Of a stretch of 64,000 nt of DNA, positions 6,952 through 57,925 are shown one piece after another. The first letter of the stretch is position 1. Each line of letters starts with the position of its first letter. The notes beneath the pieces are model-generated. The model searched no databases. It was not told the DNA's origin and saw only the letters and a program-made list of their open reading frames with translations. This stretch comes from Longimonas halophila (lineage in GTDB: Bacteria; Bacteroidota; Rhodothermia; Rhodothermales; Salinibacteraceae). The stretch covers positions 1 through 64,000 of the forward strand of contig NZ_PDEP01000014.1 in the NCBI RefSeq assembly GCF_002554705.1, written 5' to 3'. Position numbers and translations under genes: made by a program.

Positions 6952-7045
6952 TCACGGCACTTGCGCGTGTCGGCACCTCCACGTGTAAGGTGCGTTTCGT
7001 AGAATACGGTCGTATCACTGTATGCTCTCCCTACTCCCTACCGCT

Positions 7046-7525
7046 ATGCAAGCTTTTATGGATTCGGTGATTCGCACCCTGGGGCTTGAAGAGATCGACC
7101 GCCAGATTGCGGGCTGGATGGACCGCTACGGGCGCTGGCTCTTGCGCATCTCCATTGCCATCGTGTTCATCTGGTTTGGCGGGCTGAAGGTCATCGGCAT
7201 CAGTCCTGCTGAGGAACTGGTCAAGAACACCGTCTATTTCATGCCCGCTGAACTCTTCTACCCTGTTCTGGCCTGGTGGGAGGTGCTGATCGGCGTTACC
7301 CTTCTAATTCGACCACTCAACCGCGTTGCCATCCTGTTGCTCTTCCTGCAGATGCCGGGTACCATGCTGCCGCTGTTTATTCTGCCCGAGGTGTGCTTTA
7401 CCGCCTTTCCGTTTGGCCTTACGATCGAAGGGCAGTACATCATCAAAAACCTGGTGCTCATCAGCGCCGGACTGGTGGTGGGCGGCAGCGTCCGTGAGCA
7501 GAGCAGCACGGCCAAGCGACTGTAG
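7046..7525 (+). CDS. Small four-helix membrane protein, DoxX/DUF417-like
   Basis: About 159 residues starting at MQAFMDSV; earlier (7022) and later (7058) in-frame ATGs are possible. An amphipathic N-terminal part is followed by RISIAIVFIWFGGLKVIG and three further hydrophobic segments. The sequence IWFGGLKVIGISPAEELVKN resembles DUF417/YkgB and DoxX-type proteins, which are inner-membrane four-helix proteins often linked to oxidative or chlorine stress. The function here is not known. Confidence 0.65.
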   Translation: MQAFMDSVIRTLGLEEIDRQIAGWMDRYGRWLLRISIAIVFIWFGGLKVIGISPAEELVKNTVYFMPAELFYPVLAWWEVLIGVTLLIRPLNRVAILLLFLQMPGTMLPLFILPEVCFTAFPFGLTIEGQYIIKNLVLISAGLVVGGSVREQSSTAKRL

Positions 7526-7564
7526 GTATACAGTCTGGGGAGGCCTCACAACGTGCTGACGTGC

Positions 7565-8371
7565 TCAATCCGCCTCAAGCGTGGCACGCAGCTTGCGGAG
7601 ATAGGCAGGCGTGTCGAGCAGGCGCGGTCCGTACCATGAAAACAGCTGTCCATCTACAACGTGCACCGGCGTATCGGGGCAGGCCGTGCGAAGGTCCTCT
7701 GTGAAGGCGTCTTTCTGATGGAACGGGAACGGCTCGGTGCTGCACAGAATCACATCAAGATTGGCAGCGGCCAGGTCGTCGAGGGTAATCTCGGGGTAGC
7801 GCGTGGCATCGGCCCAGGGCGCGGTGAAGCCGCCGTAGCGCATCACGTCATGGATAAACGTGTCGCCACCCACGGTCATATGCGGATCGCGCCAGATGAG
7901 ATAGGCGGCGCGCAGCGAAGACCACGCGGGCAGCGCCGCGAAGCGCTCGGCAATCGTTGTAGCCATCTGCCGGGCCTCCTTGTCCCGATCCACAAGCTGC
8001 CCCACGCGGCGAATCATGGCCGTAGCTTCGTCTACCGTCGATACGTCCGTAACGTACACCGGGGCGTGATCGCTCAGGGCCTGGACATCGGCCCTGGTGT
8101 TTTCCTCCTGATTGGCGAGGATGAGGTCGGGCTGCAGGTCGGCAACGCATTCGGTATCCACCTGCTTGGTACCGCCCACGATGGTCTTGGCTTCCCGCCA
8201 CCCGTCTGGGCGCTCGCAGAAGCGCGTAAGGCCTACGACTTCGTCATCGAGCCCGAGCCCGTGCAGCAGATCGGTCAGGCTCGGTACCAGCGAGATGATG
8301 CGGGTGGGTGGCTCCGAAAGGACAATGCGGCGACCCAGGGCGTCGGTGATGTCAACGAAGGGCGCGGGCAT
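7565..8371 (-). CDS. BtuF-like cobalamin/metal-chelate binding protein without a signal peptide
   Basis: The 268-residue protein is a class III periplasmic-binding-protein fold (helical backbone metal receptor). It has the DALGRRIVL start, the IISLVPSLTDLLHGLGL segment typical of BtuF-type proteins, and LQPDLILANQEEN. It begins directly with the domain. An in-frame TAG lies 12 nt before the ATG, so no longer secreted form is possible from this frame. It would therefore be cytosolic unless exported by a partner. No permease or ATPase gene is adjacent. Ligand assignment to B12 is inferred from similarity only. Confidence 0.75.
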   Translation of the reverse strand: MPAPFVDITDALGRRIVLSEPPTRIISLVPSLTDLLHGLGLDDEVVGLTRFCERPDGWREAKTIVGGTKQVDTECVADLQPDLILANQEENTRADVQALSDHAPVYVTDVSTVDEATAMIRRVGQLVDRDKEARQMATTIAERFAALPAWSSLRAAYLIWRDPHMTVGGDTFIHDVMRYGGFTAPWADATRYPEITLDDLAAANLDVILCSTEPFPFHQKDAFTEDLRTACPDTPVHVVDGQLFSWYGPRLLDTPAYLRKLRATLEAD

Positions 8372-8383
8372 AGCGGCATAGAT

Positions 8384-8674
8384 CTACTGAAAGAATGTGG
8401 CTCCAAACAGTACGATCCCAGTTACGGCGCTGATGATAGCGATGGTGTTGAGCGTAGGCAAGGGCCGCTGCAGCGAGTGCTGGATGGGATTGCGCACCCC
8501 CATGAGTACACCGGCCAGGCCCAGAAAGGCGTCGGAGGCCGCTCCCAGTGCGTTGCCTTCTACATAGCTGCCGTAACTCATGTAGATGAGAAAGAGGCCG
8601 AATCCAATCAGCAGCAGGTCAACGATCGAGATCGGCGTATCGTCGCGGACGGCGTCGTTGGAGGTATCAGTCAT
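8384..8674 (-). CDS. Small two-helix membrane protein
   Basis: A 96-residue protein with two or three hydrophobic segments: ISIVDLLLIGFGLFLIYMSY near 15-34, a middle segment with GLAGVLMGVRNP, and a C-terminal segment near 75-94. The gene lies 12 bp upstream of the BtuF-like gene and 22 bp downstream of mpl, so the three are likely co-transcribed. I do not recognise the family. Confidence 0.6.
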   Translation of the reverse strand: MTDTSNDAVRDDTPISIVDLLLIGFGLFLIYMSYGSYVEGNALGAASDAFLGLAGVLMGVRNPIQHSLQRPLPTLNTIAIISAVTGIVLFGATFFQ

Positions 8675-8695
8675 AGGGTGGCGGGGGATGCGCAG

Positions 8696-10171
8696 TTAGG
8701 AGGATGCAGCGAGGGTATCGAGCAGACGCGTGGACAGTTCGCCAAAGGCGCCGTTGCTCATCGTCACCACCACATCGCCGGGCTGGGCGAGCTGTTGCAC
8801 ACGGCGCAGCGTGTCATCGGGGTCGTCGGCCACGGTGGCGTGCACGCCGCGCTCGCGGATGGTGGCGGCTACGGCGTGGACGTCGAGGCGGTCGTCGGCG
8901 CGGTCGTTGTGGCGAAAAGGTGGGGTGCTGAGCACAACCTGATCGGCGGCGTCGAAGGCTTCGGCATAGGCTGTGGCGAAGCGCGCGCGGCGGCTGGTGT
9001 TAGAGCGCGGCTCAAAGGCAACGATCAAGCGGCGCTCTGGGTAGGCCGTGCGCAGCCCGCGCAGCGTAGTTTGCACCGCCGTGGGATGATGCGCGAAGTC
9101 GTCGATTACGGTAATGTCGTTCACCACACCACGCACCTCCTGACGACGCGCCACTCCTTCGAATGTCTCGAATCCGCGAGCGACCTGCGCACTGTTGCAC
9201 CCCTCGCTAAACGCAATGAGCGCCACCGCCAGCGCATTCTGCAGGTTATGGCGTCCGTGCAGGGGGAGCGTGTAGGAGCCGCGTTCCAGTCCGCCCATGG
9301 TGATGGTAAAGCGCTGTCCTTCGGGCCCGGCCTCGTGGTCGGCGACGGTCACGTCGTTGCTGGGGTCGAGCCCGTAGGTGCGCACCCGTCCGTCGGTGTG
9401 GGCGCCCAGGCGCGCCACAGCAGGGTCGTCGCCACAGAGCACGAGCAGTCCATCGCGCGCGCCGAGCGTGCCCACGAAGGCTTCGAACGCCTCGCGGTAG
9501 GTATCTTCGTCAGCGAATACATCGGCGTGGTCGAACTCCAGCGATGTTACGATGGCCTTGTCGGGCCGGTAGTGCATAAACTTGGGCCGGTCGTCGAAAT
9601 AGGCGCTGTTGTATTCATCGCCCTCAATGACAAACGGCTGGTCGGTGCCCAGGTGTGCACTCTGTCCGGTGCTCTGCAGCACGCCACCAATCAGATAGCC
9701 GGGGTCGGCTTCGGCGGCACGCAAGGTGTGGGTAAGCAACGAGGTGGTCGTGGTTTTGCCGTGCGTGCCCGTCACGACGATGGAGCGGCGGTTCTCAGTT
9801 AGAAACGTATGGCCGAGGGCTTCCGGAAACGACTGCTGCACCAGGCCATGTTCGCGAGCGTACGCGGCTTCAGGATGGGTGGGCGTGCAGGCATTTCCTA
9901 CAACGGTGAGGTCAGGCGCGGGGTCGAGGTGCGCTGCGTCGTATCCCTCAAGCACCTCAATGCCCCGGTTCTTCAGCTGTGTGCTCATAGGAGGATACGC
10001 CGCTTCGTCGCTGCCCCGCACGTCGTATCCAGCCTCGTCGAAGAGCTGCGCCAGCGAGCCCATGCCCGTACCGCAGATGCCAATCAGGTAGACATCGTTG
10101 ACGGCGTCGGGTGCGGGTACATCGGGACGATTGAACGAGCGCAGATGGGCATCAGGCGGCATGGAGTGCAC
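8696..10171 (-). CDS. mpl: UDP-N-acetylmuramate:L-alanyl-gamma-D-glutamyl-meso-diaminopimelate ligase
   Basis: This 491-residue cytosolic Mur ligase attaches recycled murein tripeptide to UDP-MurNAc, bypassing MurC-MurE. It shows the N-terminal Rossmann IGICGTGMGSLAQLFDEAGYDVRGSD (about 30-55), the ATP-binding VTGTHGKTTTTSLL (about 131-144), the ligase EGDEYNSAYFDDRPKF signature and SLEFDHADVF. The 'EGDEYN' and 'GTGMGSLA' details point to Mpl rather than MurC. The last ligase domain carries IDDFAHHPTAV. Its presence implies active cell-wall recycling. Confidence 0.9.
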   Translation of the reverse strand: MHSMPPDAHLRSFNRPDVPAPDAVNDVYLIGICGTGMGSLAQLFDEAGYDVRGSDEAAYPPMSTQLKNRGIEVLEGYDAAHLDPAPDLTVVGNACTPTHPEAAYAREHGLVQQSFPEALGHTFLTENRRSIVVTGTHGKTTTTSLLTHTLRAAEADPGYLIGGVLQSTGQSAHLGTDQPFVIEGDEYNSAYFDDRPKFMHYRPDKAIVTSLEFDHADVFADEDTYREAFEAFVGTLGARDGLLVLCGDDPAVARLGAHTDGRVRTYGLDPSNDVTVADHEAGPEGQRFTITMGGLERGSYTLPLHGRHNLQNALAVALIAFSEGCNSAQVARGFETFEGVARRQEVRGVVNDITVIDDFAHHPTAVQTTLRGLRTAYPERRLIVAFEPRSNTSRRARFATAYAEAFDAADQVVLSTPPFRHNDRADDRLDVHAVAATIRERGVHATVADDPDDTLRRVQQLAQPGDVVVTMSNGAFGELSTRLLDTLAASS

Positions 10172-13372: not shown

Positions 13373-14080
13373 ATGCTTGACTCGTCTCCCCCCTCGGCCA
13401 CGCGCCTCCTCATTGTTGAAGACGACCCGGAAGTAGGCACCGGCCTCGAAGAGTTTTTTACGCTCAAGGGATACCACGTCTCTCGCGTAGACGACGGCAA
13501 ACAGGGCCTGCAAGAGATCACTTCGCTGCCGCCCTACGACCTGGTCATCCTGGACGTGATGCTCCCGCACAAGAGCGGGTTTGAGATCCTGCGCGAAGCG
13601 CGCCAGTCTGGCGTTGACTCGCCCGTCATCATGCTCACCGTAAAGGCCAGCGAAGACGATAAGCTACGCGGCTTTAAACTCGGAGCCGACGACTACGTGA
13701 CCAAGCCGTTCGACGCCGAAGAGCTTGCTGCCCGCGTGCAGGCTGTGCTCGAACGCAGCCACCAGGACGGGGAGGCCGACGATAGCTTCAGCTTCGGGGA
13801 TGTTGAAGTCGAGTTTTCCAGCGAAACCGCCCAGCGCAATGGCGAGACAATTGAGTTTACAACGCTGGAGTTTGACATCCTGGAGTACTTCATCGAGCAC
13901 CGCGGACGGACCGTGAGCCGCAAGCAGCTCCTGCGGGATGTGTGGGGCATCAGTGGCGACATCACCACGCGCACAATCGACCGGCACGTGGCGTCACTCC
14001 GCAAAAAGATCGAGCCTGATCCCACCGATCCCACCTACATCGAGACGGTGTACGGCATCGGGTATAAGTTCTCGGTGTAG
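13373..14080 (+). CDS. OmpR/PhoB-family response regulator
   Basis: 235 residues. The receiver has EDD at 16-18, phospho-acceptor Asp61 in DLVILDVMLPHKSG, the Thr of MLTVKA and the Lys of VTKPFDAEEL. The C-terminal winged helix has FTTLEFDILEYF, SRKQLLRDVWG and TRTIDRHVASLRKKIE ending in YIETVYGIGYKF. It is a normal, phosphorylation-competent transcription factor. No histidine kinase gene is adjacent, so its partner is encoded elsewhere. Confidence 0.92.
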   Translation: MLDSSPPSATRLLIVEDDPEVGTGLEEFFTLKGYHVSRVDDGKQGLQEITSLPPYDLVILDVMLPHKSGFEILREARQSGVDSPVIMLTVKASEDDKLRGFKLGADDYVTKPFDAEELAARVQAVLERSHQDGEADDSFSFGDVEVEFSSETAQRNGETIEFTTLEFDILEYFIEHRGRTVSRKQLLRDVWGISGDITTRTIDRHVASLRKKIEPDPTDPTYIETVYGIGYKFSV

Positions 14081-14102
14081 TGTACAACCGCCGGAAACAA
14101 CA

Positions 14103-14130
14103 GTAGGGACACGGCGCGCCGTGTCCCTAC
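14103..14130. repeat. REP-like perfect palindrome
   Basis: A 28-bp perfect palindrome with arms GTAGGGACACGGCG and its complement, between the convergent response regulator and lipoprotein genes. Its outer sequence GTAGGGA...TCCCTAC is shared with the hairpin at 62990-63018 inside the RAYT gene. It may also act as a bidirectional transcription barrier. Confidence 0.75.
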
Positions 14131-14151
14131 GGACCGACACACGAACGCTTG

Positions 14152-14919
14152 CTACCGCCCCATGCCAAAGACGCCGCCCCGGATCATCCAACTGAACTGG
14201 TTGCCGGGACGATCGGGAAATTCGCCAGGCGTGGCGGCGAAGTCGCCCTCAATCGTTAGCGGCGTTTCCAGCGGAGTAATGGTGGCGGGCGGCGGCTCGG
14301 GCATTTCACTCGGGCGTACACTCGTCGGCGGGTTGTTACCCAGCGAGTCAACAAACGCCTCAATGTCTGCAATGGCTACGCTGATCTCGGTTGCTGACTC
14401 CACTGTAAACGTCCCGACAACCCCGTCTTCGCTGGCCTGCTCTACGGTGAGCGTGCCATCTGTTGGCGTGTACGAGTGAATCGAGTCGGCCGTTGTTCGC
14501 GTGTAGCTGGTCGTAAGCCGATCGTCAAAGAAGAAGCCCGGTTGGCGGCAGTCCGACGGATCCTCGCATGGCAGGTCGAAGCCGAGGTCGTACGAGCCCT
14601 CTCCAAGCGGCTCCTCACCGATGTGGGTAAACGAAAGCGAGTGAGACGCGCCGGTGTCGTCCTCCCCAAATAGTTGGACGGCGGTCAGGGTGTAGCCGGT
14701 ATCGCCAATCGGGAGGAAGAACGCCGCTTCGTCGGAGAAGGCGTCGTTGCCGCCGAGCGCAGCGTTGCCCTCAATCGCTGTGTTCAGCGGCGCGCCGATT
14801 TCCATCTCAGCGTAGGGATCGGGCATCTCCTCGCCCGATTCGACCGAGTCGCAACCGGTGATGGCAAGTGCTGCCATAAATAAAACGAGAGCACAGCGTG
14901 TTGGAGTAAGATATCGCAT
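14152..14919 (-). CDS. Lipoprotein of unknown function
   Basis: 255 residues with a lipoprotein signal (hydrophobic core 10-21, lipobox ITGC with Cys23), then a short acidic linker (VESGEEMPDPYAE). The mature domain has SLSFTHIGEEPLGEGSYDLGF and GFFFDDRLTTSYTR strands, which look like a secreted beta-sandwich. It contains a PCEDPSDC pair of cysteines that may form a disulfide. No family is recognised. The next two genes upstream on the same strand are also lipoproteins. Confidence 0.65.
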   Translation of the reverse strand: MRYLTPTRCALVLFMAALAITGCDSVESGEEMPDPYAEMEIGAPLNTAIEGNAALGGNDAFSDEAAFFLPIGDTGYTLTAVQLFGEDDTGASHSLSFTHIGEEPLGEGSYDLGFDLPCEDPSDCRQPGFFFDDRLTTSYTRTTADSIHSYTPTDGTLTVEQASEDGVVGTFTVESATEISVAIADIEAFVDSLGNNPPTSVRPSEMPEPPPATITPLETPLTIEGDFAATPGEFPDRPGNQFSWMIRGGVFGMGR

Positions 14920-15080
14920 GGCAAGTTATTGGCTGGTTGTCTGTCGAGATATGTATATGCTCATCCGTCATAGCTCAGACTGATCTACGACAGATAAAGC
15001 AGAATTCTTTACGTTCATTGCATACTTTAGGAAGCACCTATTTGTTTTTCAAGAAGGCATTGCTCGCACTTTCCCATTCA

Positions 15081-15114
15081 CACACCATCGTAACACCTGC
15101 TGCAACGCCGCGCC
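15081..15114. repeat. 34-bp direct repeat, left copy
   Basis: The sequence beginning CACACCATCGTAACACC and ending in CAACGCCGCGCC is identical over 34 bp to 18221-18254. It lies two bases from the stop codon of the BNR-repeat lipoprotein gene (TAA complement at 15117-15119). Confidence 0.9.
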
Positions 15115-15116
15115 TT

Positions 15117-16433
15117 TTATTCCACTGTTCCTCGGCTGTAGTAGATACCTTCTGGATCACGGTCAATCATACGAAGAGACACATGAACATCTCCGGTTTC
15201 GTCTGTGGTTAATCCGATATGTTGTGATGCCCCATCGGCGTCGAGCAAGTTTTCAGTGGAAGTCCACGTTTCACCACTTCCACGGAGATAGAAAGCGGGG
15301 AAGGAGGTGGTGCTGAATCCACTTTTCTGGAAGACGAGATTTGCGGCACCAGTTCCATCAATGGCAACAGAGGAAAAGGTAAGAAACCCATCGATGGAAA
15401 AAGAGGGGGTAAGATTTTTAGCCTCCGTCCATTCCGTACCGCCGTTCGGCGAACAGCTCCCGAATATCGCATCAGCACTCAAGTCTCCGTTCAGGCTCTT
15501 AGCCCAGACAATGTACAATTGGTCGTTGGTGCCGTAGCGGATAAAAGGGGTTTGTGCAGGCTCGCTGTATCCTGAACGGTCTACCAGCACGCCCTCCGAC
15601 CATGTTTGCCCGTTATCTTCAGAATGTGTCACAAACACGCTATTCCGATCTCGCTCTTCTCGGGTCGTATCAGGGGCCAGGTAGGTGACAGAAAGAACCC
15701 CTGTTTCGCTAAACGCGATATCAGGACCAAATCCGCCTCCCTGCCCTCCAATTGGTGTTTTACCACCCGTCCACCCCGATGTATTCCGAACAAAGTGCCG
15801 GATTTGAGGAGGCGTTTCTTCATTTTCCTGGGAGGTTAGCACGATATGAGGGTGTCCCTCATCATCAAAAGCAAAACTGCGTGGTGCAGCAAAGAAGTCA
15901 TCGCTGCGCGAAGCGAACACTTCTTCGGCAGGCTGCCAGGTCTGGCCGCCATCGGTGCTCTGGGTGTAGTACACAGCATCTGGTACAACGTCGGGGCGCG
16001 GAGTGGCATCCTGCAGTCGTTCTCCCCACATGAGATGAAGCGTACCATCGGGTCCTGCTGCAAGCGTGGGATTCATGGAAGGCGTATCGCTCTGTGACAG
16101 GTTAACCGGCTCTGTCCATCCTGACGCCGTACGTCGTACGACATACACGTCTTGTATTGTCACGAACGTTCCAGTCGTATCTACCTGATGAAATGCGATG
16201 ACCGGTTCGCCATCGTGGATGGCTACATCAGCATGAGTGGCAATACCGTCCACATCGACAGGCACCTGCTCCGGGGTTTCCCACGTCACGGACGAGGATA
16301 GCGCGTCGCCCTCACAAGCAACCGGATCAGGCTCTGGGGGCTCTGTGGTCGTATCACATCCGATGAGTAAAACCACCAGTGCCAGCTTTATCGCTACGCG
16401 CCCGACCAGATATGAAATAGATTGCGGAGTCAT
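15117..16433 (-). CDS. BNR/Asp-box repeat lipoprotein (sialidase-like fold)
   Basis: 438 residues with lipobox LLIGC (Cys26) and an acidic Pro/Glu linker. The mature part is an Asp-box beta-propeller. STDGGQTWQP (near 150) and SEDNGQTWSE (near 280) match the S-x-D-x-G-x-x-W box well, and a third, SPNGGTEW (near 340), is partial. Sialidases have this fold, but the Arg triad and other catalytic residues are not evident, so I would not call it a sialidase. The protein is probably outer-membrane-anchored and ligand-binding. It lies in an AT-richer segment bounded by the 34-bp repeat. Confidence 0.75.
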   Translation of the reverse strand: MTPQSISYLVGRVAIKLALVVLLIGCDTTTEPPEPDPVACEGDALSSSVTWETPEQVPVDVDGIATHADVAIHDGEPVIAFHQVDTTGTFVTIQDVYVVRRTASGWTEPVNLSQSDTPSMNPTLAAGPDGTLHLMWGERLQDATPRPDVVPDAVYYTQSTDGGQTWQPAEEVFASRSDDFFAAPRSFAFDDEGHPHIVLTSQENEETPPQIRHFVRNTSGWTGGKTPIGGQGGGFGPDIAFSETGVLSVTYLAPDTTREERDRNSVFVTHSEDNGQTWSEGVLVDRSGYSEPAQTPFIRYGTNDQLYIVWAKSLNGDLSADAIFGSCSPNGGTEWTEAKNLTPSFSIDGFLTFSSVAIDGTGAANLVFQKSGFSTTSFPAFYLRGSGETWTSTENLLDADGASQHIGLTTDETGDVHVSLRMIDRDPEGIYYSRGTVE

Positions 16434-16464
16434 GGCGTTCAGTTGTTATATGAATGTATGCAAG

Positions 16465-16517
16465 AAAATGATAAACAAATGGCCGGGGACTTGGCGAGAG
16501 AATGCCATGTCCCCGGC
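16465..16517 (-). terminator. Terminator of the lipoprotein gene at 16530
   Basis: On the minus strand a stem with 9-bp perfect arms (GCCGGGGAC at 16482-16490 with GTCCCCGGC at 16509-16517), extended by a TGGC/GCCA pair inside, is followed by a T-rich stretch. It sits just downstream of the 16530-17330 gene. Confidence 0.75.
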
Positions 16518-16529
16518 TAACTTGCACCG

Positions 16530-17330
16530 CTAAAACGACCACGTGTATTCCCAAGCGCCAGACCAGTCTTGAATTCTTACGTACCCATTTGGGTAATCCG
16601 CGCTCTCGTCGTATACGAGATGGTTCCCTCTCTGACTATACCACGTATTTGTTTGGTAATTGAGAGTAGCAGAAACTCCTGCAAAGCGGCCGTCGAAACT
16701 GTAATCGTAGCCTATGTATGCAGGGAAAAAGTCAACATAGGACGATCCAATTACGTCCAAGTAAGAGACATTTTTGGTGGTTCTGGTATTGGACCCCATC
16801 CATACGCGTGAAAGAAAAGAGTTAGGATCGACATACGATCCTAAGTATGCTGTCCAACCGCCCGAAGTTGGAGCACTGGAGTGCTCAACAGCAGGCACCG
16901 TGTTATCTGGATCTACCTGGGCGTCAAAATCCACCGTGCTGGCATCAACCGCTTGGTCTCGAATGTCCTGTGACGGTTCAGCTTCAGTTCCTACACTTTG
17001 ATCCTGAAGCTGTATGTCTGGGCGTGTAGAAGGGACTTTGTATCCATCAGGAGCTCGTGACTGGACCTGATTTGTAATGTCTTCGGGGACAGCGTACTGA
17101 TCTGTCGAGTACACACCTGACTCCAGATCAAGCGGAAGCCCAAAGGCATTCAGGCGCTTGTCCTGCATATCATCGGTAGACTCAACAGAGCGTTCTGGAG
17201 CCGGGATCTGGTCATTCCCTTCCTCTACCTCAACGGGAGCTTCTTGATCACATCCAGTTAGTCCCCCAAGCACCAGGGTACATGCAATCACCAATGCGAA
17301 TGAACGTCGTATCGATTGGATAATCATCAC
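16530..17330 (-). CDS. Lipoprotein with an aromatic beta-rich C-terminal domain
   Basis: About 266 residues (MMIIQ or MIIQ start). The signal peptide ends at LGGLTGC with Cys27. A long polar, Asp/Glu/Gln-rich linker (about 30-155) leads to a compact C-terminal domain of roughly 110 residues rich in Tyr, Trp and Gly (YLGSYVDPNSFLSRVWMG, FFPAYIGYDYSFDG, IQDWSGAWEYTW). I do not recognise it. The codon use is visibly more AT-rich than that of housekeeping genes in the window. Two 22-bp-spaced repeats lie 80-120 bp upstream. Confidence 0.65.
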   Translation of the reverse strand: MMIIQSIRRSFALVIACTLVLGGLTGCDQEAPVEVEEGNDQIPAPERSVESTDDMQDKRLNAFGLPLDLESGVYSTDQYAVPEDITNQVQSRAPDGYKVPSTRPDIQLQDQSVGTEAEPSQDIRDQAVDASTVDFDAQVDPDNTVPAVEHSSAPTSGGWTAYLGSYVDPNSFLSRVWMGSNTRTTKNVSYLDVIGSSYVDFFPAYIGYDYSFDGRFAGVSATLNYQTNTWYSQRGNHLVYDESADYPNGYVRIQDWSGAWEYTWSF

Positions 17331-17411
17331 TTTTCAAGGTATCCGACGAGAAGTATCTGACTATAATGCATTGTTCATTACCAGCTTCATGGCTTCTTGT
17401 TATCTATCGAT

Positions 17412-17447
17412 CGATACAATTTTTATGTGACGACCGATACATTTTTA
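17412..17447. promoter_or_regulatory. Tandem operator-like repeats
   Basis: CGATACAATTTTTA at 17412-17425 and CGATACATTTTTA at 17435-17447 are near-identical and in phase by about two DNA turns (TTTTTA ends 22 bp apart). They lie between the LuxR-type regulator and the start of the lipoprotein gene it may control. Confidence 0.4.
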
Positions 17448-18107
17448 CTATCCGCCTGTCTTCTGCAAGCGCAGCCAGGTCGGCACGTCGTGGTCATATC
17501 CCCATACAATGAGCTTGAGCCGAGAAGACATATCCAGCTTCTGAAGGATGTGGTGTACATGGTTTTTGACTGTGCCCGTGCTCACGTGCAGCGCCTCAGC
17601 AATCTCAGGATTGGCCTGCCCCCGCATGACAGCAGCCAGCACCTCGCATTCGCGGGGCGTCAGTTGACGTAACTGGTGATGCACTGAGGTCTGCCCAGGC
17701 AGTAGTTGCCTCGATAGGTGCGGGCTGATCCATCCGTCTTGACCAGCCGCTGCACCGCGCAGGGCTTCGAGCACGAATGCGGGTGCATCGGATGTCATCA
17801 GACACCCTGCGGCACCAGCATCGAACATCGAGTCGGCCATCCACGGCTGGAGAATTTGGCTCAGCACCACGACACGCGTCTTCAGATCGCTCGACGCAAT
17901 TGATCTTACGATCGTGGTGGTTGGCGGCTTTTCAAATGAGGCTCCAATGACCGCGACATCCGGTGATGCCTTGCGTACGTCCTGCAGAGCTGTCTTTCCG
18001 CAATCAGTAGCATCGACCGTCTGAAAGTCGGCCACGTGGTCGAGCCATGTGTGGAGCACTGTCCCCACGAGTAGGTGGGGAACGGCAATGAGAATGCGAA
18101 TGGGCAT
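17448..18107 (-). CDS. LuxR-type regulator with a degenerate receiver domain
   Basis: 219 residues from MPIRILIAVPHLLVG. The C-terminal LuxR helix-turn-helix is intact: LTPRECEVLAAVMRG, NPEIAEALHVSTGTVKNHVHHIL. The N-terminal domain aligns with NarL-type receivers, but the phosphorylation pocket is lost. The acidic pair is Val9-Pro10, the phospho-acceptor position is Gly55 (PDVAVIGASF) and the switch Lys is Thr (GCLMTSD). It should therefore act without phosphorylation, perhaps through ligand or protein binding. The chosen start is where receiver similarity begins; the upstream in-frame extension overlaps the 34-bp repeat and looks non-coding. Confidence 0.75.
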   Translation of the reverse strand: MPIRILIAVPHLLVGTVLHTWLDHVADFQTVDATDCGKTALQDVRKASPDVAVIGASFEKPPTTTIVRSIASSDLKTRVVVLSQILQPWMADSMFDAGAAGCLMTSDAPAFVLEALRGAAAGQDGWISPHLSRQLLPGQTSVHHQLRQLTPRECEVLAAVMRGQANPEIAEALHVSTGTVKNHVHHILQKLDMSSRLKLIVWGYDHDVPTWLRLQKTGG

Positions 18108-18220
18108 TGGATCGTTGCCAAAACGGGAAACGCACGAACTGGATGGGCTTTGCTGTGCATTCACATGGTAATACGCCGTGTTCGAGCACGCAACCGTTGG
18201 TTGTAACAGATTGCTACGAG

Positions 18221-18254
18221 CACACCATCGTAACACCTGCTGCAACGCCGCGCC
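18221..18254. repeat. 34-bp direct repeat, right copy
   Basis: Identical to 15081-15114 in the same orientation, 3,140 bp apart. It lies between the LuxR-type gene and rlmD, about 80 bp upstream of the rlmD start. Flanking bases differ, so the identity is limited to 34 bp. Confidence 0.9.
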
Positions 18255-18332
18255 CGGAGCATGCGTACAGGGCGTCTGCATCGGGTGCACGTTTCGCATC
18301 TGTTTTCTTGCTCAATAGCACGCTTTCAGCCT

Positions 18333-19736
18333 ATGGCTTCGGTATCGCACGGCGATCTTCTGACCCTCGACATTGAAAAGTTTGCCGACAAGGGCGCTTC
18401 GCTGGCCCGCGTTGACGGCTACGTGATCTTTGTGGAGGATGCGGTGCCAGGCGACCGGGTGAAGGCGTACGTCTACCAGGCCAAGTCCAGCTTCGCCAAG
18501 GCCAAGCTCGACACGCTCATCGAGCCCAGCATCCTGCGCACCGAGCCCCGATGCCGCTACGCCGACACCTGTGGCGGATGCGCGCGCCAGCATGTGACAT
18601 ACGAGGCGCAGTTGGAGGCCAAGCAGCAGTCCGTGCAGGAAGCCTTTGCGCATCACAGCGATTTTTCGGATGTCGAGGTGCCGCCCGTTATCGGGATGGA
18701 GGAGCCGTTCTACTACCGCAACAAAATGGACTTCGACTTCAGCGCCGACCGCTGGCTCACCCGCGATGAAATCGACTCCGGGCAGGACTTCGACACCGAC
18801 TTTGCGCTGGGGATGCACGCGCCCGGTCACTTCGACAAGGTCCTCGACCTGCACGAATGCCACCTGCAATCGGACATGAGCGCGCGCCTCGTGAATGGCG
18901 TCCGCGACTTTGTGAAGGAGCAGGGCTGGGCGCCGTGGGACATCCGGAAGCAGAAGGGCTACCTGCGGCATCTCGTGATTCGCGAGGGTAAGCGCACGGG
19001 CGATCTCATGGTGAACCTCGTGACCTACGGGCGCAATGCCGAGCGCCGCGATGCCTTTGCCGACTTCTTGCAGCGCGAATTTCCGGAGGTTACGACGTTT
19101 GTGGATACGGACCACACCGGCAAATCCCATAACGTAGAGGGCGATACGCAGACCGTCTTCGGCCCCGGCACCATCGACGACATCATCGGCGACTATCGCT
19201 TCACGATCAGTCCGCAGTCGTTCTTCCAGACGAACACGCAGCAGGCCGAGCGCCTCTACCAGATTGCGCACGACTTTGCTGATCTGCAGCCCACCGACAC
19301 CGTGTACGACCTGTACTGCGGCGCAGGAACCATCTCGCTCTTCCTGTCGGATGCCGTGGATCAGGTCGTCGGCGTGGAGCTCATCGAGGAGGCCGTGGAA
19401 GATGCCCGCGCCAACGCCGCCCAGAACGACGTATCCAACTGCACCTTCGAGGCAGGCGACCTGAAGACGGTCTTCACGGACGACTTCGTGGATACGCATG
19501 GCACGCCTGATGTCCTCATTGTGGATCCGCCGCGCAACGGCATGCACAAGAAGGTGACCGCCCAAATCAAAGCGCTGCGTCCCGAGCGCTTCGTGTACGT
19601 AAGCTGCAACCCACAGACGCAGGTGCGCGACCTCGACCGCCTGCGCGATGTGTACCAGATTGAGGCGGTGCAGCCCGTCGATATGTTTCCGCATACGCCG
19701 CATATTGAGAACGTGGTATCACTGCGAGCGATCTGA
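18333..19736 (+). CDS. rlmD: 23S rRNA (uracil-C5)-methyltransferase, RlmD/TrmA family
   Basis: 467 residues from MASVSHGDLL. An N-terminal TRAM domain (about 5-65) is followed by an iron-sulfur cluster site with Cys74, Cys80 and Cys83 (CRYADTCGGC). The SAM-binding core has YDLYCGAGTISLFL and the GVELIEEAVEDA segment. DPPRNGMHKK and the catalytic cysteine in VSCNPQTQVRDL are present. It methylates a uracil in 23S rRNA (U1939 in E. coli for RlmD). The exact target within the RlmC/RlmD/TrmA set is not certain. Confidence 0.85.
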   Translation: MASVSHGDLLTLDIEKFADKGASLARVDGYVIFVEDAVPGDRVKAYVYQAKSSFAKAKLDTLIEPSILRTEPRCRYADTCGGCARQHVTYEAQLEAKQQSVQEAFAHHSDFSDVEVPPVIGMEEPFYYRNKMDFDFSADRWLTRDEIDSGQDFDTDFALGMHAPGHFDKVLDLHECHLQSDMSARLVNGVRDFVKEQGWAPWDIRKQKGYLRHLVIREGKRTGDLMVNLVTYGRNAERRDAFADFLQREFPEVTTFVDTDHTGKSHNVEGDTQTVFGPGTIDDIIGDYRFTISPQSFFQTNTQQAERLYQIAHDFADLQPTDTVYDLYCGAGTISLFLSDAVDQVVGVELIEEAVEDARANAAQNDVSNCTFEAGDLKTVFTDDFVDTHGTPDVLIVDPPRNGMHKKVTAQIKALRPERFVYVSCNPQTQVRDLDRLRDVYQIEAVQPVDMFPHTPHIENVVSLRAI

Positions 19737-19781
19737 TTTTGGACGTTCGATTGGGGATTTGCGATTGGGGATTTTGGATTG
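19736..19781. repeat. AAATCCAAAATCGC-type repeat array, left (inverted) copy
   Basis: Beginning at the rlmD stop codon, the top strand reads as a T/G-rich array (ATTTTGGACGTTCG, then two GATTGGGGATTT-type units). Its complement resembles the A/C-rich arrays at 20333-20467. It therefore forms an inverted partner on the other side of the S23 gene. Confidence 0.6.
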
Positions 19782-19814
19782 CTCTGTTGTGTGGGGTTCT
19801 CTTTACTCGGAGGC

Positions 19815-20168
19815 TTACTGATTCTTGCGAAGCGTTTTGATGGAGGCAACAGTCATCGCCACGATTTCGTCGCCCTCTTGCATCAGGTCGGTTATTCGGT
19901 GCTCTGGGACCAGCCCTGAATCGATAAGAAGCTCCATCCAATACAGGCACTCATCGGCCTCTTCTTCGACGATGGCGAGCTTTGCAATGACATCGGCACG
20001 TGACTTCCCTCTGCACGCCGCGCGATAGTTTGCACCAACCGACGTGCCCGAACGTAGCAGTTGACGCCCGATGACGGACGCGAGTCGCCCTCGCGGAAGT
20101 GACTCTGTTAGCCGAATGATGCGAAGCGCGTACTGCTTGGTACGGTCCTTAAATGCTTGCTCAGTCAT
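19815..20168 (-). CDS. Four-helix-bundle protein of the S23 / 23S rRNA intervening-sequence family
   Basis: 117 residues from MTEQAFKDRTKQYALRII. The pattern is typical of the S23 family: RIIRLTESLP, QLLRSGTSVGANYRAACRGKS, KLAIVEEEADECLYWMELL and a final helix with EIVAMTVASIKTL. The family was first noticed inside 23S rRNA intervening sequences and includes distant relatives of the diversity-generating-retroelement protein Avd. The function of stand-alone members is not known. Here the gene is enclosed by inverted arrays of short repeats, a context consistent with a mobile passenger. Confidence 0.8.
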   Translation of the reverse strand: MTEQAFKDRTKQYALRIIRLTESLPRGRLASVIGRQLLRSGTSVGANYRAACRGKSRADVIAKLAIVEEEADECLYWMELLIDSGLVPEHRITDLMQEGDEIVAMTVASIKTLRKNQ

Positions 20169-20332
20169 CCTTGAATGGGAATCCGAGAGCTGAAAATCCT
20201 GCGCCTGTAGCCGTTGCAACGCCGGCTTGTCTGTATAGACCGCGCAGCAGCCCAAGCGTAACGTGCAATTTTACAGACTACCATTCGCCATCGAGATCCC
20301 CCCATCCTCAAGCGATTCCCTCCAATGGAACC

Positions 20333-20364
20333 CAATCGAAAATCGCAAATCCAAAATCGCAAAT
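20333..20364. repeat. 32-bp repeat, copy A
   Basis: CAATCGAAAATCGCAAAT followed by a second AAATCGC-containing half. It matches copy B at 20436-20467 in 31 of 32 positions. It is internally a tandem of AAATC(C/G)AAAATCGC units and is the inverted counterpart of the array at 19736-19781. Confidence 0.75.
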
Positions 20365-20427
20365 TCAAAACCGCCGATTAACGGAATAGCCCCACCGCCA
20401 TCCTCCATCTTCCCCCCACCACTCTCC

Positions 20428-57835: not shown

Positions 57836-57925
57836 GGAGAGGTGGCCGAGTGGCTGAAGGCGCTCCCCTGCTAAGGGAGTAAACGGTTTATAGCCGTTTC
57901 GAGGGTTCGAATCCCTCCCTCTCCG
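57836..57925 (+). tRNA. tRNA-Ser (anticodon GCU)
   Basis: A 90-nt class II tRNA. The acceptor stem GGAGAGG pairs with CCTCTCC (57918-57924). The D-arm GGCCGAGTGGCTGAAGGC, the anticodon stem CTCCC...GGGAG around GCT, a long variable arm (AAACGG/CCGTTT) and the T-arm GAGGGTTCGAATCCCTC are all visible. CCA is not encoded (GCA follows). A terminator follows. Confidence 0.97.

Follow-up and report, generated by a model that had tools for sequence, protein, structure and literature searches.

A three-gene lipoprotein islet between perfect 34-bp direct repeats upstream of rlmD in Longimonas halophila, probably gained recently and without an integrase of its own

CIMEs and similar integrase-less remnants of ICEs and IMEs carry cargo between attL- and attR-like repeats and have no integration genes. 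The microcin H47 island of E. coli, which is bounded by direct repeats, has no recombinase of its own, and it excised independently of every host recombination function tested, among them the 16 site-specific recombinases of E. coli K12 (PMC3191183, PMC5426353). Direct repeats also flank many strain-specific blocks of Haloquadratum walsbyi, with one copy at the corresponding site of the other strain (PMC3119063). Among bacterial regulators, aspartate-less receivers form a described class (PMC4395418). We report here a locus of Longimonas halophila that can be compared with these.

The window, that is the whole stretch of DNA analysed, comprises 64,000 nucleotides (assembly GCF_002554705.1, contig NZ_PDEP01000014.1, positions 1 to 64,000 of the forward strand). 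A previous sequence-only reading had noticed two identical 34-bp sequences of the same orientation, 3,140 bp apart, enclosing two lipoprotein genes and a LuxR-type regulator on one strand, the left copy ending two bases from a stop codon. This description proved exact. The 34-mer CACACCATCGTAACACCTGCTGCAACGCCGCGCC is present at 15081-15114 and 18221-18254 on the same strand, the copies being 100% identical and 3140 bp apart start-to-start, and the left copy ends two bases short of the reverse-strand stop codon of the BNR gene. The features of the locus are as follows.

14152..14919, minus strand: host lipoprotein gene on the left side, present in the congeneric genome G001 too (G001 left-flank match over window 13373-15114; host-like codon use)
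15081..15114, plus strand: DR-L, left copy of the 34-bp direct repeat (exact match; its upstream flank runs on into the left flank of G001)
15115..18220, no strand: inserted block of 3106 bp, missing from G001 (gap of 3106 bp versus -34 bp in G001:C29; GC 0.524)
15117..16433, minus strand: BNR-repeat lipoprotein, 438 aa, lipobox LIGC (Pfam BNR_2 1e-10, BNR_4 5.7e-7)
16482..16517, minus strand: hairpin GCCGGGGAC...GTCCCCGGC in the gap separating the lipoprotein genes, of terminator-like or dispersed type (pattern scan)
16530..17330, minus strand: orphan lipoprotein, 266 aa, lipobox LTGC (no Pfam or NCBIfam match; no plasmid match)
17448..18107, minus strand: LuxR/NarL-type regulator, 219 aa, with an aspartate-less receiver domain (GerE 4e-18; Response_reg 2.9e-5, below cut-off; alignment)
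18221..18254, plus strand: DR-R, right copy of the 34-bp direct repeat (exact match; 78 bp before the rlmD ATG at 18333; downstream flank 93% identical to G001)
18333..19736, plus strand: rlmD, 23S rRNA uracil-1939 methyltransferase, host gene adjoining the insertion (TIGR00479 9e-109)

Chance cannot explain the pair of 34-mers, as about 7e-8 exact 34-bp pairs are expected genome-wide by an iid estimate. The L. halophila genome (G000, 3.73 Mb in 35 contigs) contained these two copies and no others when up to 3 mismatches were allowed, and the reversed 34-mer, used as a control pattern, gave 0 matches. The edges of the repeat are sharp, because the sequences outside the two 34-mers are unrelated between the ends (60-bp flanks 0.28 and 0.25 identical). 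Within the family, the one further copy was the empty site of G001 described below, and upstream of rlmD in other genera the 34-mer was not conserved, the best ungapped matches reaching 15-18 of 34 positions. A structure check found no hairpin and a weak dyad at most, and no inverted repeat pairs the two ends of the block.

The single same-genus genome compared, G001, contains one perfect 34-mer (C29:8662-8695). Window positions 13373-15114 align with G001 6956-8695 at 84% identity and positions 18221-19717 with G001 8662-10158 at 93% identity. The left and right matches overlap by exactly the 34-mer, with nothing between the flanks, so that the inter-flank gap of 3106 bp in L. halophila corresponds to -34 bp in G001:C29. 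The one-copy, cassette-free allele that the sequence-only reading had advised looking for in related genomes therefore exists, with both flanks contiguous. Neither outcome that the same reading had named as refuting was encountered: the 34-mer is not a common genome-wide repeat lacking an empty site, and the three genes are not kept in conserved order among relatives, no other searched genome of the order containing the block. In several other genera of the family (e.g. L056, L057, L058 and L059), the upstream response-regulator gene and rlmD lie near each other without such a block.

Several other features were noticed around the locus. Nucleotide identity to G001 changes at window 15114/18221 from about 84% on the left to about 93% on the right, the rlmD side. 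Behind rlmD, window 19718-20392 does not align to G001, which has 522 bp there, and an ORF within it (19815-20255) encodes a protein of the 23S rRNA-intervening-sequence type (PF05635). A palindromic dispersed repeat, GGGACACGGCGCGCCGTGTCCC, lies at window 14106-14127 and belongs to a REP-like family of the genus, of which 1.3 Mb (G000) and 1.5 Mb (G001) yielded 5 and 7 exact copies, respectively.

The composition of the block agreed with the suggestion that it was AT-rich and horizontally acquired. GC content is 0.524 in the insert and 0.606 in the rest of the window. With GC3 values of 0.46 and 0.50, the two lipoprotein genes fall under every one of the 32 reference genes in the window (mean 0.725, sd 0.061), and the same holds for codon adaptation; the regulator gene is also low in GC3 (0.64), yet nearer host values. 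The insert DNA had no relative in 113 other genomes of the order, the best result being one 24-bp match. The orphan lipoprotein was found in its own genome alone among 114 genomes of the order, and the BNR lipoprotein had no match at E<=1e-15 in 112 other genomes. A phage or plasmid origin was examined and rejected: the 34-mer is absent from viral contigs, the lipoproteins are unmatched in viral contigs and plasmids, and no DNA match was found in phages. Taken together, the congeneric empty allele, the absence elsewhere in the order and the foreign composition and codon use support an acquired module. The simplest reading is a recent gain of the block in the L. halophila lineage, and the outgroup pattern likewise favours gain as the presumed direction.

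The three ORFs identified between the repeats are all on the minus strand and none is a recombinase, in line with the integrase-free interior described previously. The BNR-repeat protein and the orphan both start with a lipoprotein signal (LIGC and LTGC, respectively). The former is a probable outer-surface beta-propeller; a sequence search retrieved no PDB relative. When the orphan was scanned against the genome contigs, one short weak match, limited to its first 43 residues, was obtained, and its single-sequence structure model was uninformative (mean pLDDT 36.9). No RNA families were found. A shorter relative of the hairpin at 16482-16517 occurs 13 times in 1.5 Mb of G001 and twice in 1.3 Mb of G000, including the islet copy.

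In the regulator, alignment with ordinary homologues (LADDH ... LLDMEMP ... TKD) gave IAVPH ... VIGASFE ... MTSD, the acidic pair being replaced by VP and the phospho-Asp site by G, with the Lys missing. By this alignment the protein is of the aspartate-less receiver (ALR) type, a receiver-like domain joined to a GerE DNA-binding domain. Such a regulator, not controllable by the usual phosphorylation, would control the two cell-surface lipoproteins. Another member of the family carries a comparable cluster (L044, G010:C163), in which a LuxR-type gene with a degenerate receiver is 34-35% identical to the islet regulator. Behind it, on that strand, lie genes for an unrelated lipoprotein and an esterase-like secreted protein, the stretch being AT-richer than its surroundings. 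The layout is similar to that of the islet, but the cargo is different and non-homologous. This one parallel suggests that regulator-plus-lipoprotein modules of such a kind may travel in the family.

We also surveyed indels of at least 300 bp over about 480 kb aligned between G000 and G001. Of 35 such events, the rlmD islet showed its exact 34-bp repeat, a second showed an exact repeat of 20 bp and a third a borderline one of 18 bp, so that gain between repeats is a minority mode in this comparison and not the rule. The 20-bp repeat TACGAAGCGAGCCAGTCGTA (G000:C3:207496/210313) lies within a 34-column stretch with 29 matches, and its left copy is the 3' end of a rhomboid-like gene. It bounds a 2.8-kb insert (G000:C3:207496-210332, L142:7496-10332) whose products are a lipoprotein-like protein of 608 aa and another protein of 211 aa, without Pfam match, and the corresponding site in G001 (C17 near 34310) is empty; this is a second convincing repeat-bounded insertion. 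The 18-bp repeat (G000:C3:49063/51730) has 2 mismatches and is borderline, at p 0.02 per test in about 24 tests. Four other candidates were discarded: G000:C1:340982/342979 lies in a dispersed repeat family, the left flank of G000:C1:53440/54285 is unmatched in G001, C1:615.9 kb looks like a CRISPR-type array, and C2:190 kb falls within long similar, paralogous-looking sequence. A dispersed element of about 190 bp was also seen at G000:C1:51751-51940 (L066:11751-11940), with about 40 matches in G001.

On balance, we favour reading 15081-18254 as an islet of recent gain that lies between repeats, lacks an integrase, was joined at a short shared stretch and is probably excisable. On the evidence of a one-copy empty allele, the lack of relatives in the order and the foreign composition, the 3106-bp block came into the intergenic DNA before rlmD in a single piece, with a 34-bp host sequence now at both of its edges. 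Most likely a circular form would have integrated Campbell-fashion through the 34-bp sequence, either with a recombinase supplied in trans or through host recombination across the short repeat, and exit by the reverse reaction would restore a one-copy site as in G001. The analysis revealed no circle, excision product or donor molecule. Candidate routes are a tyrosine recombinase in trans, RecA-independent recombination and break repair duplicating 34 bp. No recombinase, transposase, attC site or tRNA target was found in or at the block; the site is intergenic and the only tRNA of the window lies at 57836. Three tyrosine recombinases are encoded elsewhere in the genome (G000 C1, C2 and C13), one of which is an integron integrase (G000:C2:147903-148892; L204:1450-2439, minus strand; TIGR02249, 449 bits versus a cut-off of 265), and no evidence linking any of the three to the 34-mer was found. 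In G001:C4 near 45585, about 594 bp are missing inside the integron integrase gene, and this copy appears broken. The 34-mer, having a weak dyad and no hairpin, does not resemble the core site of a recombinase. The anatomy fits the earlier idea of the ends of an integrated element, but its site-specificity is unsupported, no recombinase lying inside. The repeats of the two convincing insertions differ in length (34 versus 20 bp), which homology or repair could produce too. A more speculative proposal, which we regard as doubtful, is that this lineage has an undescribed means of integration. It would place small blocks of cargo, in many cases surface or lipoprotein genes, while doubling about 20-34 bp of host target by means of an enzyme whose gene lies elsewhere, and both the rlmD islet and the G000:C3:207-kb insert would be products of it.

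The main rival to the acquired, excisable islet is break repair with duplication, in which a staggered break in the rlmD leader, or a fork there that resumed 34 nt upstream, caught a foreign fragment and fill-in doubled the 34 bp without any mobile element. We judge it unlikely, if worth serious consideration. The block indeed lacks a recombinase and terminal inverted repeats, repeat lengths vary by case (34, 20 and about 18 with 2 mismatches) and most of the large indels, 35 events being compared, have no repeat at all. However, a 34-nt stagger is long, and a random fragment would rarely comprise three complete genes with their upstream region and end 2 bp past the last stop codon, as this tidy, self-contained block does. 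Unlikely too, and ranking behind break repair, is the deletion from G001, by recombination between the 34-bp repeats, of a block ancestral in the genus. Precedents speak for it, since 10 of 11 polarised repeat-bounded indels of Haloquadratum were deletions (PMC3119063) and RecA-independent deletion between perfect 46-bp repeats was demonstrated in E. coli (PMC5426353); against it, the block and its lipoproteins are missing from all other family and order genomes searched, and the composition is un-ameliorated. Moreover, a 34-bp repeat cannot pre-exist by chance, so that even with a loss from G001 an earlier, duplicating insertion is still needed.

The remaining explanations carry far less weight. 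A misassembly that fused the contig with a distinct molecule carrying the 34-mer too (34 = k+1 for k = 33) is improbable even for a draft of 35 contigs with 92.4% completeness: this molecule would need a sequence known only from the rlmD leader of this genus, the block has no replication gene, and L044, from within the family, has a related cluster of regulator and lipoprotein. The suggestion that the repeats are paired regulatory sites, operators of the regulator, loses ground on comparison with G001, which has the 34-mer yet no regulator. The right copy does lie between the divergent regulator and rlmD genes, but the left one lies behind the last gene of the block and before none of them, and the 34-mer has neither dyad nor hairpin, which makes this reading very improbable. 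Least credible of all is the idea that the integron integrase of the genome inserted the block as a gene cassette at a secondary site. The enzyme is present, but a simple pattern scan of the block and of the sampled 1.3 Mb detected no attC-like site, 2 bp separate the last stop codon from the repeat, the three genes have their own upstream regions and the 34-mer is unstructured; the cassette was rejected on the missing attC. An IS or transposon was rejected as well, no transposase and no inverted repeat pairing the block ends being found.

Returning to the favoured reading of a gained islet, it offers a clean before/after picture, at base resolution, of a surface-protein module gained with its own regulator and without visible mobility genes. 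Should excision be real, the locus would serve as a simple natural model in which to test mobility without an integrase, and RecA-independent recombination, outside E. coli and the haloarchaea; if the lineage-specific process duplicating about 20-34 bp were true, a new integration enzyme would await discovery. As a kind of structure, the islet belongs with the H47 and Haloquadratum cases. Like the H47 island, it is small, bounded by direct repeats, devoid of a recombinase gene and matched by a natural one-copy empty site, and H47 does excise via short repeats. The H47 island is larger (13 kb versus 3.1 kb) with unrelated cargo, its repeats are about 146 bp long and 77% identical, with a longest perfect stretch of 20 bp, whereas the islet has a perfect 34 bp, and its excision was tested experimentally. 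The H. walsbyi indels (PMC3119063) share the pattern of a strain-specific block flanked by direct repeats where the counterpart has one copy, but their repeats are mostly of 4-20 bp and they are mostly inferred deletions, whereas for the 34-bp islet the wider phylogeny favours gain. The arrangement of cargo between attL- and attR-like repeats without integration genes is that of CIMEs, although the target is neither a tRNA nor the 3' end of a gene, and neither the own genome, the family nor the viral contigs disclosed an ICE or IME sharing the att site. The LuxR-type protein resembles ALR regulators (PMC4395418) in having neither the phosphorylatable Asp nor the acidic pair, and differs in its location on a lineage-specific islet beside lipoprotein genes. 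Beyond the H47 and Haloquadratum precedents, the islet contributes a repeat that is both long and perfect, a small surface module with its regulator, and a distribution among outgroups that speaks for gain.
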